From positions 124,001 through 188,000 of the forward strand of contig CANJCB010000002.1 of NCBI GenBank assembly GCA_947473305.1: DNA of 64,000 bases. Direction: 5' to 3'. Origin of the DNA: Rhodospirillales bacterium. GTDB taxonomy: Bacteria > Pseudomonadota > Alphaproteobacteria > ATCC43930 > CGMCC-115725. This document shows positions 1,060 through 43,862 of the stretch, one piece after another. The notes under the pieces are model-generated. The model made no database searches, was not told the origin of the DNA, and saw nothing but the letters and a program-made list of their open reading frames with translations. Position numbers and translations under genes: made by a program. Each line of letters opens with the position of its first letter. Position 1 is the first letter of the stretch.

Positions 1060-2091
1060 GTGAAACTTCCGGCCGCGCGCATCTCCACCTTCCTGAAACA
1101 ACCCGACGCCGATATCCGGGCCGTGCTGATCTACGGGCCCGACAATGGCCTGGTGAGAGAGCGGGCCGATGCTCTGGGCTTGGCGATCTGTTCCGATCTG
1201 AAGGATGCGTTCCGGGTCACCGATCTCACGGCGGCGGCGCTTGTGGCCGACCCGGCGCGTCTCAACGATGAAGCATCGGCCCTCAGCCTGATCGGAGGGC
1301 GGCGCCTGATCCGCGTCAGGGATGCCACGGACAATATATCCTCTCTTTTCGCAGGTTTCCTGGGATCGCCCCCGCCGGGAGACGGCTTTGTCGTGATCGA
1401 AGCGGGCGACCTTCCCGGCAAGTCTTCTTTGCGTAAAGCCTTTGAGGGATCCCCGAGAGGGGCCGCTGTCGCTTGTTACGGCGATGCCGGCCGCGACCTG
1501 GCGGATCTCATCCGCGAGATCCTTGGAAAGCATGGGATAAGCATCAGCAGCGACGCCCAGTCTTACCTCCTGGCCCACCTGGGAAACGACCGGATGGTGA
1601 GCCGGGGAGAGATCGAGAAACTCGCGCTTTATGCGGGCGACCGGGGTCGGGTGGAGTTGGACGACGCCACGGCCTGCGTCGGGGATAGCGCGTCTCTTTC
1701 TGTCGACGACATTGTTTATGCGGCGGCGGACGGAAAAGGGGTCGCGCTGGAACGCGCGCTCATCAGGGCTTTGCAAGAGGGCGAGGCGCCGATTTCGATC
1801 TTGCGGGCAGTCATGCGGCACTTCCAGAAACTTCATCTGGTCGGATCGCGGCGCATGGCCGGAGCCTCGGTGGAGGAAGCCTTGCGCGCTTTGAGGCCTC
1901 CGCTCTTCTTCAAGGTTGCAGATCGGTTCAAGGCGCAGCTCGACGTCTGGCCACCCCATCGCGTGGTCTCGGCGCTCGAGCTTTTGATGCAGGCGGAGAT
2001 CAACGGGAAGCGGAGCATTCTGCCCCAGGAGACGATTTGCCGGGATGCCTTGCTGCGCGTGGCCCGCGCGGCCGCCGTTAGGCGAAATTAA
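1060..2091 (+). CDS. holA: DNA polymerase III subunit delta
   Basis: The delta subunit opens the beta sliding clamp within the clamp loader. The 343-residue protein starts with GTG at 1060 and has the usual delta length. Its N-terminal AAA+-like domain includes LIYGPDNGLVRERAD and later SLIGGRRLIRVRDA; its C-terminal part matches the delta collar region (SILRAVMRHFQKLH). A true Walker A is absent, as is normal for delta. It follows lptE after 7 bp, the common HolA neighbour. The stop overlaps the stop of the convergent parB gene by 4 bp (TTAA), leaving no room for an intrinsic terminator. Confidence 0.92.
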   Translation: MKLPAARISTFLKQPDADIRAVLIYGPDNGLVRERADALGLAICSDLKDAFRVTDLTAAALVADPARLNDEASALSLIGGRRLIRVRDATDNISSLFAGFLGSPPPGDGFVVIEAGDLPGKSSLRKAFEGSPRGAAVACYGDAGRDLADLIREILGKHGISISSDAQSYLLAHLGNDRMVSRGEIEKLALYAGDRGRVELDDATACVGDSASLSVDDIVYAAADGKGVALERALIRALQEGEAPISILRAVMRHFQKLHLVGSRRMAGASVEEALRALRPPLFFKVADRFKAQLDVWPPHRVVSALELLMQAEINGKRSILPQETICRDALLRVARAAAVRRN

Positions 2092-2975
2092 TAACGGGGC
2101 ATTCCCATCGCGGTGGGATTGAGCCGGCGGAGCACGTCGTCGAGCTGCTCCAGGGTGCGATATTGGATCGTTATCGATCCGCCCTGGCCCCTGAAGTCGA
2201 TCGAGACCTTTAGGCCCAGAAGGTTAGCCAGATCCCGCTCCAGGGCGGCGGTATCGGGATCCTTCTCAGGAATCGGCCGCGGGTTTCTCCCGGAAAGACC
2301 TTTATTCGCCTGGCTCATCCGCTCTGTATCGCGGACGTTCAGGCCCCGGGTCACGACTTCCTCGGCCAGAGCTATCGGGTCGCTCGATCCGAGCAACGCC
2401 CGAGCATGGCCCGCCGATAGCTTCCCCTCATTGACGAGATGCTTTACCGGTTCGGGCAAACCGAGAAGCCGCATCATATTGGCGACGTGGCTGCGGCTTT
2501 TCCCGACCGCCCGCGCGAGATCCTCCTGGGTATGGTCGAATTCATCCATGAGGCGGCTATAGCCTTCTGCCTCTTCCAGCGGGGTGAGGTCAGCGCGCTG
2601 GATGTTCTCCACCAAAGCGACTTCGAGCGCCTCGCGATCGTTGAAATCCTGCACGATGACAGGAACCTCGTGGAGGCGCGCCATCTGAGCCGCTCGCCAG
2701 CGGCGTTCGCCCGCGATGATCTCATAACCGCCCGGGTTCTCCGGATGCCGCCGCACCAGTAACGGCTGCAACACCCCGCGTTCCCTGACAGAATCCGCCA
2801 GGGCGGCCAGGCTTTCCTCATCGAAATGCTTACGCGGCTGGAAGGCGCCGGGCGTGAGCATATCCACAGAGACCAGTTTCCCGCCGCCCTGCCGGTCGGA
2901 AAGCTCCGGCTCGTCCTCTCCGAGAAGAGCCGAGAGCCCGCGCCCCAAGGTTTTCCGGCGAACATCCTCGTTCAC
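2088..2975 (-). CDS. parB: Chromosome partitioning protein ParB
   Basis: ParB binds parS sites near the origin, spreads as a CTP-dependent clamp and partners with ParA in chromosome segregation. The 295-residue protein starts with GTG and shows the typical N-terminus with RKTLGRGLSALLG. The CTP-binding motifs GERRWR (about residues 89-94) and ENIQRADLTPLEEA (about 123-136) are intact, followed by the helix-turn-helix (about 149-171) and a C-terminal dimerisation domain. It overlaps parA by 4 bp (GTGA), so the two form one operon read leftward. Its two likely targets are the parS sites at 4350 and 6300. Confidence 0.97.
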   Translation of the reverse strand: MNEDVRRKTLGRGLSALLGEDEPELSDRQGGGKLVSVDMLTPGAFQPRKHFDEESLAALADSVRERGVLQPLLVRRHPENPGGYEIIAGERRWRAAQMARLHEVPVIVQDFNDREALEVALVENIQRADLTPLEEAEGYSRLMDEFDHTQEDLARAVGKSRSHVANMMRLLGLPEPVKHLVNEGKLSAGHARALLGSSDPIALAEEVVTRGLNVRDTERMSQANKGLSGRNPRPIPEKDPDTAALERDLANLLGLKVSIDFRGQGGSITIQYRTLEQLDDVLRRLNPTAMGMPRY

Positions 2976-3799
2976 AGGCGCGCCCTCTCCCGCTGGAGCA
3001 CTTCCTTGGCCAGATGCACATAGGCCTGGGCCCCTGCGCAGCGAAAATCGTAAAGCAGAACCGGCTTGCCATGGGACGGGGCTTCGGACACGCGGACATT
3101 GCGGGGAATGACCGTCTCATAGACCTTGTCACCGAAATGGTCGCGCACGTCCGCAGCGACCGAATCACACAAATTGTTGCGTTTATCGAACATGGTCAGC
3201 ACCACTCCTTGAATTTCAAGTGAGGGGTTGAGGTGTCGCTTGACCCGTTCAATGGTGCGAATGAGGTGGCTCAACCCTTCCAAGGCATAGAATTCACATT
3301 GGAGAGGAACGAGCACCGCATGGGCTGCCACCAAGGCGTTGAGCGTCAACAGCGTCAAAGACGGCGGGCAGTCGATCAGCACATAGTCATAATCCAGCGG
3401 CGCTTCACGAAGCGCATCCCGCAGCTGATATTCACGCCGATCCGTGGCGACGAGCTCGATCTCGGCTCCGGAGAGCTCGACGGAGGACGGGATCATAAAG
3501 AGGCGTGGAATGGCCGTCGGCAGGACCGCTGAAAGCAGGGGCTGGCGCTCGATCAGCACATGATAGGACGTAAGCCGCCGCGCTTGACGATCGATGCCCA
3601 AGCCGGTGCTGGCATTGCCCTGCGGATCAAAATCAATCAGCAGGATGCGTTTGTTGGTCGCCGCCAGAGCCGTGGCCAGATTGATGGCGGTCGTGGTTTT
3701 CCCCACCCCCCCTTTCTGGTTTACGATTGCGATCACGCGGCTTGATGTCACCGCTTGTTCGGCATCAGGCGTGGTCAGGGAGGCGGCCAGGGAACTCAC
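2972..3799 (-). CDS. parA: Chromosome partitioning ATPase ParA (Soj family)
   Basis: ParA is a deviant Walker-type ATPase whose nucleoid-bound gradient moves ParB-parS complexes. The 275-residue protein shows the deviant Walker A KGGVGKTT (about residues 29-36, with the signature first lysine), the switch I region DFDPQGNAS (about 56-64) and the Walker B region DYVLIDCPPSL. The N-terminal extension of about 20 residues is unremarkable. The GTG start at 3799 lies 35 bp inside the end of rsmG, and parB starts within its stop. The order mnmG-rsmG-parA-parB is a classic origin-proximal cluster. Confidence 0.97.
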   Translation of the reverse strand: MSSLAASLTTPDAEQAVTSSRVIAIVNQKGGVGKTTTAINLATALAATNKRILLIDFDPQGNASTGLGIDRQARRLTSYHVLIERQPLLSAVLPTAIPRLFMIPSSVELSGAEIELVATDRREYQLRDALREAPLDYDYVLIDCPPSLTLLTLNALVAAHAVLVPLQCEFYALEGLSHLIRTIERVKRHLNPSLEIQGVVLTMFDKRNNLCDSVAADVRDHFGDKVYETVIPRNVRVSEAPSHGKPVLLYDFRCAGAQAYVHLAKEVLQRERARL

Positions 3800-4412
3800 G
3801 GGTGGGTTTCTCCAGTCGCAAAATCCGGCCGGAAGGATCGCTTCGGCTTGGATAGGGCGTGACGGTCATCTTCCATTGTTTGCCTATCTGGGTCAATTCT
3901 TCCGACACGCTACGCCCCTTGAGAAGCAGGCAAGTGGTATCCGGCCCCATGAACCTTTCGGCCAAGTCCAGCAACTTGGACAGAGATGCAAAGGCCCGCG
4001 CCGTAATGACTTTTGCCTTGAAGGGCGGCGCGTCTTCGATGCGTTTGGGAATAATCACAGGGTCGGCTTGGGTAAGACGGGCAGCTTCACGCAGAAAGAC
4101 ACATTTCCTTTGGTCGGATTCGATCAATCGGACATCGAGGACGCCCAGCACAGAGAGGACCAGGCCGGGAAAGCCCGCACCGCTGCCAAGGTCCACGAGG
4201 GGGGCGCACTCGCTCGGCAGGAACGGGAGCAGCTGGGCCGAGTCGAGGACATGGCGGCGCCAGACATCCGCTAAACTGTCGCGGCTGACCAGATTGATCT
4301 TTTCGTTCCATTGGCGGAGCAAGGCGACATAAATCTCAAGTCGGGCCAATGTTTCATGTGAAACATTCGTTTCCTTTTGAAACCGCTCCGCCGTTAAGGG
4401 GGCCTCAAGCAT
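3765..4412 (-). CDS. rsmG: 16S rRNA (guanine-527-N7) methyltransferase RsmG
   Basis: RsmG (GidB) methylates N7 of G527 in 16S rRNA using S-adenosylmethionine. The 215-residue protein carries the SAM-binding glycine-rich loop [10 protein letters not shown] (about residues 74-83). Residues NVSHET (about 16-21) are encoded by a parS site embedded in the gene, a feature known from many gidB genes. The start overlaps the end of mnmG by 8 bp and the end overlaps parA by 35 bp, so it is in the middle of a leftward operon. Confidence 0.95.
4350..4365. promoter_or_regulatory. parS site inside rsmG (15/16 match)
   Basis: TGTTTCATGTGAAACA differs from the classical parS palindrome TGTTTCACGTGAAACA at one central base. 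It lies in the rsmG coding sequence and encodes part of NVSHET. ParB encoded at 2088-2975 is the expected ligand. It is about 10 kb from the candidate origin, inside the usual range for parS. Confidence 0.9.
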
Positions 4413-6299: not shown

Positions 6300-6315
6300 T
6301 GTTTCACGTGAAACA
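6300..6315. promoter_or_regulatory. parS site between mnmE and mnmG (perfect palindrome)
   Basis: TGTTTCACGTGAAACA is an exact 16-bp match to the bacterial parS consensus. It sits in the 53-bp gap between the mnmE stop and the mnmG start. Together with the site at 4350 it makes a pair 1.95 kb apart, about 8-10 kb from the candidate origin. Confidence 0.95.
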
Positions 6316-13112: not shown

Positions 13113-14168
13113 CTAGCTCTTCCAGGCCCGCAAGCGCTCGGTCAGCCGCGCCACATGGTCCGGCGGCGTCTCCAGCATCACCCCGTGCCCGAGATTGAAG
13201 ATGAAAGGCGCTCCGGCCAGGTTTTCCAAGATGTCATCGATAGCCCGATCCATCCGATCGCCGCCCAGGCGAAGCAGCAACGGTTCCAGATTCCCCTGGA
13301 CCGGCCCGATCGGCTGAAGCTTTTCCTTCGCAAAGCCAAGCGGGACCGTTTGATCGAGCCCGACAGCGCTAACGCCCGTCTCGCGGAAATAGGTCTCGTA
13401 CATCAGGCCGGCACCCCGCGGGAAACCGATGATCGGCAGATCGGGATAAACTTCCCGTAAGGCCTCGACGATCTTTCTGGTCGGCTGGATAACACAACGG
13501 CGGAAGGCCTCCTCCGGCAGAACCCCAGCCCAGCTATCGAAGAGCTGCAGCGCCTCAGCCCCCGCCTTCACCTGTTCTTTCAGATAGAGAATCGTCGCGT
13601 CGACCAGCCGGTCGATGAGCAGGCCGAAACCATCGGGATCCTCGAAGGCCCATTTTCTCGTTTTCGCGAAATCCCGGCTCGACCCGCCTTCGACCATATA
13701 GGTCGCCACGGTCCAGGGCGCCCCCGCAAAGCCGATTAAGGCCACTTCAGAGGGCAGGTCACGCTTCACCCGCGCCACCGTCCCGAATACCGCTCCCACG
13801 CGCTCCAGCAGCCGGTTTGGTTCATAGGCCCCGAGCTCAGCCACCGATCTTATCGGGGATAGAACCGGACCCTCTCCTTCCTTGAAGGCGACCTCCTGGC
13901 CAAGGCCATAGGGTACAACCAGAATGTCGGAAAACAGGATGGCCGCATCCATGCGATAGCGTCGGATCGGTTGCAAGGTAACTTCGGCGGCAAGCTCCGA
14001 ATTGAAGCAAAGGTCAAGGAAACCCTTGGTGCTTGCCCGCACAGCCCGGTATTCCGGCAGGTATCTTCCCGCCTGGCGCATCAGCCAGAACGGTGGGGTC
14101 TCAACCGCCTCGCCAGCCAAGGCCCTCAGGAAAGGTTTACGGCTCATTTCCTTCGGGGCAACGGGCAC
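13113..14168 (-). CDS. hemE: Uroporphyrinogen decarboxylase
   Basis: HemE converts uroporphyrinogen III to coproporphyrinogen III. The 351-residue protein contains the N-terminal signature PPFWLMRQAGRYLPEYR and the VPYGLGQEVAF substrate loop. The GTG at 14168 has AAGGA six bases upstream; the ATG at 14147 (MSRKPFLRAL) is the alternative, but its purine run is only one base away. The hem genes read leftward from here. The gene marks one side of the conserved alphaproteobacterial origin neighbourhood. Confidence 0.95.
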   Translation of the reverse strand: MPVAPKEMSRKPFLRALAGEAVETPPFWLMRQAGRYLPEYRAVRASTKGFLDLCFNSELAAEVTLQPIRRYRMDAAILFSDILVVPYGLGQEVAFKEGEGPVLSPIRSVAELGAYEPNRLLERVGAVFGTVARVKRDLPSEVALIGFAGAPWTVATYMVEGGSSRDFAKTRKWAFEDPDGFGLLIDRLVDATILYLKEQVKAGAEALQLFDSWAGVLPEEAFRRCVIQPTRKIVEALREVYPDLPIIGFPRGAGLMYETYFRETGVSAVGLDQTVPLGFAKEKLQPIGPVQGNLEPLLLRLGGDRMDRAIDDILENLAGAPFIFNLGHGVMLETPPDHVARLTERLRAWKS

Positions 14169-14569
14169 TCGGTCGATCCTTATCTGACGTCCCTCTACCC
14201 TTCCTTATTTATAAGAAATAGGTGGTTGAGGTAGTGGGGGACATGAAAGCTGTGGACTAAATCTTATACAACCCCTTATCCCAAATCCGTAAGCTCGGCT
14301 ACGACAGGGCTCGTGACCGGGGGATAAAAGACGGATATGACGGAACGGCCTGTGTCTTACCGCGAGATAGCCGGGAAACTTCAATTCGGGGAAGCTGGGG
14401 ATAAGATGAACGGCAAAGCGGGTTTTCCCGGATCGCGGAGGGGTGACAGTCACTTGTCCCCTTCTGCATATCCCTCCCTAGGATATTTACCCTTTCGGGG
14501 GTGGAAATTGGCCGCCCTTCAAAAAGGGTCGGTTGTCCCCTGTTTCGAACAGGCCGTTCACAGGCCCTT
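14169..14569. other. Candidate chromosomal replication origin (oriC)
   Basis: This is a roughly 400-bp gene-free gap between hemE and the RP001/DUF299 homologue, the same gene pair that flanks the experimentally defined Caulobacter origin and the predicted Rickettsia origin. It holds an AT-rich stretch at 14200-14221, DnaA-box-like 9-mers (14396-14404 in the gap, 14569-14577 at its edge, weaker ones at 14251-14259, 14262-14280 and 14319-14327), and inverted repeats at 14468-14486 (ATATCC/GGATAT) and 14515-14528 (CCCTT/AAGGG). Neighbouring genes on each side are transcribed away from it. I found no perfect DnaA box, which is common in Alphaproteobacteria. The boundaries are approximate. Confidence 0.72.
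14396..14404 (-). promoter_or_regulatory. DnaA-box-like 9-mer
   Basis: TGGGGATAA, read as TTATCCCCA on the minus strand, matches the DnaA box TTATCCACA at 8 of 9 positions. It lies in the candidate origin. Confidence 0.45.
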
Positions 14570-14577
14570 GTGCATAG
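14569..14577 (-). promoter_or_regulatory. DnaA-box-like 9-mer at the ppsR start
   Basis: TGTGCATAG, read as CTATGCACA on the minus strand, matches TTATNCACA at 8 of 9 positions. It overlaps the proposed GTG start of ppsR (14570), so DnaA binding there could also affect that gene; this is inference. Confidence 0.42.
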
Positions 14578-15406
14578 GTTCCGGGCTTTGACCCGGTTTC
14601 ATCTCCATCTCGTTTCCGACGCCACCGGGGATACCGTCCATTCGGTCGCCCGCGCCTGCCTCGTCCAGTTCGAGGATGTGGAGGCCATAGAACATATCTG
14701 GTCGATGGTCCGCACCAAGGCCCAGCTCGACCGGGTGATCGCCAGCATCAAGCTCAACCCCGGACTTGTCCTTTTCACCATCGTCAACGAGGCGCTGCGC
14801 ACGCATTTCCAGGAAGGCTGCCGCAAGCTCCAGATCGCGACGATTCCCGTGCTCGACCCGATCATCGCGGCCTTCGGCGCCCATCTCGGTCGCCAGAGCC
14901 GGGGATTGCCGGGACAACAGCATCTGCTCGACAACGAGTATTTCGCGCGGATCGACGCGATGACCTTCGCCATGAACCACGACGATGGCCAATCCACCTG
15001 GGGCCTGAACGATGCGGATGTGGTGCTGGTCGGCGTCTCCCGCACGTCCAAGACGCCGACCTGCATCTATCTCGCGAACCGGGGGATCAAGGCGGCCAAT
15101 GTTCCCATGGTTCCGGGCGTGGCCCTGCCGGAGGAAGTCTTTACCGCGACCCATCCCTTGATGATCGGCCTGACCAACGATCCGGAACGGCTGATCCAGG
15201 TGCGGCGCAACCGGCTGACCACGCTTCAGCAGAACGATCGGACCGACTACACCGACATGGAAGCGGTAAAGGCGGAGGTAGCTATGGCGCGGCGTCTCTT
15301 CACCGAGCACAAATGGCCCGTCATCGATGTGACCCGCCGATCGATCGAGGAGACGGCTGCCGCGATCCTCAAACTCCTCGCAAGGCGGCAGGGGACCGAC
15401 GCATGA
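14570..15406 (+). CDS. ppsR: Pyruvate, phosphate dikinase regulatory protein (DUF299, RP001 family)
   Basis: This family is a bifunctional ADP-dependent kinase and Pi-dependent pyrophosphorylase acting on PPDK or PEP synthase. The protein contains FHLHLVSDATGDTV at the N-terminus, the P-loop-like GVSRTSKTPT, and the LLDNEYFARIDAMTFAMNHDDG segment characteristic of the family. The frame is open from 14501, but family length (about 275) favours the GTG at 14570 (278 residues) or the TTG at 14588. It is the first gene of a rightward operon with maf, aroE and coaE, and is the RP001 homologue that marks alphaproteobacterial origins. Confidence 0.9.
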   Translation: MHRFRALTRFHLHLVSDATGDTVHSVARACLVQFEDVEAIEHIWSMVRTKAQLDRVIASIKLNPGLVLFTIVNEALRTHFQEGCRKLQIATIPVLDPIIAAFGAHLGRQSRGLPGQQHLLDNEYFARIDAMTFAMNHDDGQSTWGLNDADVVLVGVSRTSKTPTCIYLANRGIKAANVPMVPGVALPEEVFTATHPLMIGLTNDPERLIQVRRNRLTTLQQNDRTDYTDMEAVKAEVAMARRLFTEHKWPVIDVTRRSIEETAAAILKLLARRQGTDA

Positions 15407-43737: not shown

Positions 43738-43862
43738 TTTGGTCTCGCTAAGCAGGTCTTGGTCCTGCCGGCCGCGCCACGCGACATATCGCGAGCTTGT
43801 TGACGCGGCCCCGTCTCAAAGGACGGCAGCTACTCCCCTCAACGGGATGAACCTAGCGACCG
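43738..43862 (-). ncRNA. yybP-ykoY manganese riboswitch upstream of mntP
   Basis: The minus strand holds the hallmark GAGGGGAGTAGC (43840-43829) of the yybP-ykoY class, then stems and the segment GGACCAAGACC (43764-43754). A P1 stem can form between GGTCGCTAG (about 43861-43853) and TTAGCGAGACC (about 43751-43741). The class senses Mn2+ and commonly controls mntP, which is exactly the downstream gene here. The 3' boundary is approximate. Confidence 0.82.

Follow-up and report, generated by a model that had tools for sequence, protein, structure and literature searches.

Where does replication of the chromosome begin in an uncultured bacterium that is represented by a draft assembly? The question is raised by the gap between two genes, hemE and ppsR, in a 64,000-nucleotide stretch of DNA, called the window below (C2:124001-188000), which is part of the 247-kb contig C2 in a genome of 4.70 Mb and 105 contigs. 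The host is a Rhodospirillales-like bacterium whose closest named relatives are Rhodospirillales or Alphaproteobacteria metagenome assemblies, with PpsR identities of 72-81%. A boundary between hemE and COG1806 has been proven to mark the origin in Caulobacter, was inferred to do so in Rickettsia and has served for predicting origins in other Alphaproteobacteria (PMC1914354). An earlier note on this DNA had accordingly placed oriC between the two genes. Our analysis upholds that proposal: given the conserved synteny, the skew minima here and in closed relatives, the enrichment of DnaA boxes in 44 orthologous gaps and a module that is unique in the genome under leave-one-out training, the gap is almost certainly the chromosomal oriC.

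The gap and its neighbours

The left flank of the gap is hemE (uroporphyrinogen decarboxylase; 13113-14147, minus strand) and the right flank is ppsR (DUF299, COG1806, the RP001 homologue; 14588-15406, plus strand). Both identities, proposed earlier from the sequence, are borne out by Pfam matches of 388 bits (URO-D) and 319 bits (Kinase-PPPase), and the genes do diverge, each reading away from the gap. Alignment with relatives sets the hemE ATG at 14147 and the ppsR TTG at 14588, leaving a gap of 440 bp (14148-14587) with a GC content of 53.6%, compared with about 65% over most of contig C2. The synteny is kept in the relatives in which both genes were found, with gaps of 324-727 bp.

The genes parB and parA (2088-3799, minus strand; Pfam ParB domains and AAA_31/ParA) are found in the same window. 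Beside them are the two parS sites that had been reported 8-10 kb from the gap, an exact copy of TGTTTCACGTGAAACA at 6300-6315 and a copy with one mismatch at 4350-4365. A third parS-like site, with two mismatches, is located on another contig (G000:C63:14145-14160). An Rfam search recovered no RNA family within the gap; elsewhere in the window it annotated a yybP-ykoY manganese riboswitch (43750-43846, minus strand) that scores barely above the Rfam gathering score.

Strand-composition skew

The cumulative keto skew (G+T minus A+C) of contig C2 has its minimum at 139,692 (window 15692), a mere 1.1 kb away from the gap. That of the GC skew is less sharp and is located at 153,171 (window 29171), 15 kb from the gap. 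The earlier note had named a minimum near 14.3 kb as support; the keto skew comes close to it, the GC skew less so. A change-point fit to the GC skew gives 150.0 kb, with a rough interval of 139.0-154.5 kb that narrowly misses the gap, and from 140 to 225 kb the C2 skew is flat.

Closed genomes provide a further view. In a closed genome of the same order (G037) the keto minimum is at 5,099,814 in the 433 kb scanned, about 5 kb from a gap at approximately 5,094,600-5,094,980, and the cumulative curve is still climbing towards and through dnaA, 245 kb further on. The keto skew alone agrees in this genome: the GC minimum is 40 kb from the gap, and a coarsely sampled GC skew places its minimum elsewhere. 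Coarse sampling of G054 places the minimum in the interval 2.964-3.175 Mb, which includes the gap (about 3.009 Mb) and leaves dnaA (3.227 Mb) just outside. For G052 the corresponding interval, 2.026-2.194 Mb, borders on the gap (2.209 Mb) and is more than 1 Mb from dnaA (at 0).

DnaA boxes in the gap

As had been noted before, the 440-bp gap hosts no perfect DnaA box. It does host five boxes with one or two mismatches to TTATCCACA, where the density on the contig predicts 0.49 and composition-matched shuffles predict 1.0 (P = 0.0025). These are TAGTCCACA at 14251-14259 (minus strand, two mismatches), TTATCCCAA at 14276-14284 (plus strand, two mismatches), TTATCCCCC at 14319-14327 (minus strand, two mismatches), TTATCCCCA at 14396-14404 (minus strand, one mismatch) and CTATGCACA at 14569-14577 (minus strand), which is immediately ahead of the ppsR start. 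The last two match TTATNCACA at eight of nine positions, with 0.05 such matches expected.

Over the 44 orthologous gaps there are 72 DnaA boxes against 3.3 expected. The commonest perfect form tested is TTATCCCCA, with 16 copies compared with six of TTATCCACA, a preference that recalls the weak boxes of Caulobacter (PMC4468827). The DnaA protein of this genome is itself ordinary and has the canonical RDHTTV recognition motif.

Two other clusters of boxes on C2 were considered and set aside. Four of the five sites in the cluster at 90.1-90.6 kb are within long open reading frames, and we judged this cluster to be due to chance; the cluster at 218.8 kb, three TTATCC sites and one more box, has no module match. 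The inverted repeats that the earlier note had listed along with the 8/9 boxes do exist, but they are short and far apart, and we see no clear role for them. The best is a perfect 11-bp repeat, GAACGGCCTGT / ACAGGCCGTTC (14343-14353 and 14549-14559), with 195 nt between its arms and a near-copy at 14559-14569.

A conserved module at the hemE end

When the gaps of relatives are aligned, the end next to hemE stands out as a block of AT-rich DNA, a GGTAGTGGTAG-like stretch, a G-rich stretch and two tandem boxes, (T)GTGGATA and CGGGGATTA, which on the opposite strand read TATCCAC(A) and TAATCCCCG. In this genome the order from the hemE end is an AT-rich stretch (14205-14220), a tract with a three-base period (14223-14237), a G run and the DnaA box at 14251-14259, which occupies the same place as the conserved TAATCCCCG box of the relatives. 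Read along the box strand, the order in the aligned gaps is box 2, box 1, spacer, triplets, AT-rich DNA. Here the first of the two tandem boxes is degenerate; its best remnant is ATGTCCCCC (14236-14244), with four mismatches by our own count. The AT-rich block had previously been given as 14200-14221; it is real, and 14205-14220 are better limits. It opens the conserved 55-bp module (14205-14259), and strand melting probably starts in it. The earlier note had overlooked the tract of trio-like triplets and the box next to it (14223-14259).

The module is specific enough to single out the gap. A 55-bp model trained leave-one-out, with this genome excluded, scores 25.4 bits at 14205-14259, which ranks first among 494,298 positions in C2; the next separate site scores 9.7. 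A second model, also built without the sequence of this genome, has its best match genome-wide in the gap (16.1 bits, E = 0.05; runner-up 9.6 bits). Shorter models are weaker, and a 36-bp model placed the gap 22nd. For G037, with the three closed genomes of its genus excluded from training, the best score is 26.7, in the gap, against 5.4 for the next site; in all ten outgroup stretches outside the training set of that test, the best match is upstream of ppsR.

A search with the second model of 86 genomes sampled across Alphaproteobacteria yielded matches in 51 of them (E <= 0.1). Among the 30 top-ranking loci, six of which had fed the model and the remainder of which had not, 29 encode hemE and/or ppsR beside the match: in five of these hemE is present with ppsR undetected, and one, at a contig end, has ppsR and no hemE. 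The only one of the 30 with neither gene, L172 (G073:C39:124022-124077), may be an origin that has moved or a chance match. The module model can serve to search for oriC in draft genomes of Alphaproteobacteria, in which the skew gives little signal and dnaA may be distant.

GANTC, the sequence methylated by CcrM, occurs in a 30-bp stretch around the AT-rich portion of the module in 24 of the 44 gaps (3.6 expected). This suggests that melting may be sensitive to methylation in the relatives; in this genome the site is missing from the gap (14148-14587).

Triplets beside the box

The tract at 14223-14237 can be read as five triplets, 3'-GGT GAT GGA GTT GGT-5', on the plus strand, which is presumably the bound strand. 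Its period is shared widely. In the 44 gaps the identity of bases three apart is 0.413, compared with 0.294 after shuffling (z = 9.4), with lag 6 raised too, and for 23 class loci that had not been used in training, z at lag 3 is 9.2, although loci picked by a model lean towards that model. Phased triplets from these 23 loci have C first (102/115), then A, T or C about equally, then A (88/115), where the choice of the best phase favours C and A by construction. A test that uses no model found five-triplet C.A runs scoring at least 9/10 in 13 of the 44 gaps, this window included, against 0.5 expected and none on the opposite strand. A coding origin of the period was rejected: in most genomes, this one included (57 bp), the hemE frame is closed by a stop codon short of the tract, although there are exceptions.

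How does the tract compare with the published rule for trios (Pelliciari 2021)? A box with at most two mismatches is located within 16 bp of the triplets, the first of which ends at 14237, 13 bp from TAGTCCACA, and a three-base unit is repeated beside this box on a fixed strand. That said, the rule's three consecutive NAN triplets do not occur in this gap, and such runs are not enriched in the 44 gaps (eight, versus 12.1 by shuffle). Taken with the triplet phasing and the strand-biased C.A runs, this leads us to read the tract as resembling DnaA-trios with a free middle base, 3'-GNT-5'.

Cell-cycle regulators

The genome encodes CtrA (418 bits, above the family cut-off) and GcrA. Nevertheless, no CtrA site (TTAA-N7-TTAA, up to two mismatches) was found in this gap, and the 44 gaps together contain one with at most one mismatch, against 3.0 expected by chance. 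A consensus search for IHF sites found none in this gap and none in the 44 gaps, and neither CtrA nor IHF sites occur in any of the 36 gaps that come from this family or its sister family. The scarcity of CtrA sites agrees with the reported dispensability of CtrA in the Rhodospirillales studied, where its loss has no effect on growth or viability (PMC8116508). The absence from the family and its sister family also fits the published idea that CtrA acquired cell-cycle control later than its role in motility.

Alternative explanations

Many bacteria have their origin beside dnaA, and the hemE gap could be an old location or a mere neighbour. In this genome dnaA is on the same contig (C2:228 kb), 90 kb off, and the flat stretch of the C2 skew runs almost up to it. 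However, the skew of closed genomes rules against this location, with a minimum near hemE/ppsR and far from dnaA in G052 and a curve that rises through dnaA in G037. None of the boxes listed for C2 is around dnaA, the module model finds nothing there and the position of dnaA near the origin is not conserved in Rhodospirillales (PMC8116508); we consider an origin at dnaA extremely unlikely. It is also improbable, if slightly less so, that the module is a promoter or regulatory element of hemE instead of an origin element. It is directly upstream of hemE and stays with this gene in the five class loci that lack a detected ppsR, and transcription of hemE is tied to the origin in Caulobacter (PMC8959179). 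Yet the module has its DnaA boxes in tandem and its triplets placed as in an unwinding module, the gap around it is rich in further boxes and the skew minima coincide with it. The module could serve both hemE regulation and the origin.

A different doubt accepts oriC at this site and takes the period-3 tract for a low-complexity spacer, with opening by another route, e.g. loop-back. The free middle base, at odds with the published conserved middle adenine, and the lack of enrichment of strict runs speak in its favour. Even so, the tract keeps to one strand and one position, with the box on one side and AT-rich DNA on the other in every case, both in the 44 gaps and in 23 other loci of the class, and the consensus search of these gaps yielded no IHF site for looping. 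Moreover, the authors of the trio work themselves suspected trios without the middle adenine, which possibly explain origins that they could not score (PMC8287927). On balance a mere spacer is unlikely, and unwinding by a trio-type mechanism is the probable route, by analogy with Bacillus.

A proposed model for initiation

It is very probable that the gap serves as the chromosomal replication origin, and probable that a DnaA-loaded module opens the AT-rich stretch. The location, its conservation, the box enrichment, the period-3 tract and the skew switch were computed directly, and on these we build the following proposal. DnaA would bind the several weak boxes across the gap. The box at 14251-14259 would load a DnaA oligomer onto the plus strand of the trio-like tract (14223-14237) in its single-stranded form, and the oligomer would stretch the tract; we infer both the bound strand and the loading from the Bacillus system. 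Stretching of the tract would then melt the AT-rich DNA at 14205-14220 beside hemE, helicase loading would follow and forks would depart both ways. ParB and the parS sites 8-10 kb off would segregate the new origins. The analysis places the origin of an uncultured group from sequence.

Comparison with known systems

Bounded by hemE and COG1806 (ppsR), AT-rich, hosting a cluster of DnaA boxes above chance and located at a switch in strand composition (close by keto skew, less exact by GC skew), this origin is a further member of the already known hemE-type class in Alphaproteobacteria. It shares its flanking genes, gap size, AT-rich stretch, several weak DnaA boxes and nearby parAB with Cori of Caulobacter crescentus and the predicted origin of Rickettsia prowazekii. 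It differs from Cori in that CtrA and IHF sites are missing by consensus, though the genome has ctrA. The predicted origins of Wolbachia, Ehrlichia and Anaplasma (the hemE / COG1253 type), found via flanking genes and binding sites, are also beside hemE, but their other flank is a different gene and CtrA and IHF sites are reported for most of them.

The closest likeness to the module is the basal unwinding system (BUS) of Bacillus subtilis, DnaA-boxes 6/7 plus the DnaA-trios, where box, short spacer, triplets and AT-rich DNA match in order and also in orientation, given the orientation that we assume for the B. subtilis oriC sequence. Most relatives have tandem boxes like those of the BUS, while here the first box is no longer clear. 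The order of box, spacer, trio and AT-rich DNA has been described for B. subtilis oriC (PMC6669920, PMC8287927), and a survey of about 2,070 origins predicted DnaA-trio modules in 85% of them (PMC8287927). A search of the main text of open-access papers for 'DnaA-trio' together with 'Alphaproteobacteria' returned one paper, on epsilonproteobacterial origins. The triplets of the BUS are 3'-GAT-5'; here the outer G and T are kept and the middle is free. Should experiments bear out a loosened trio code, it would represent a new version of this unwinding element; the published definition is challenged directly, and in a testable way, by a free middle base. We tentatively hypothesize that alphaproteobacterial origins share an unwinding module with 3'-GNT-5' trios, of which DnaA may read the outer G and T and no middle adenine, and that the trio code might differ between bacterial lineages.
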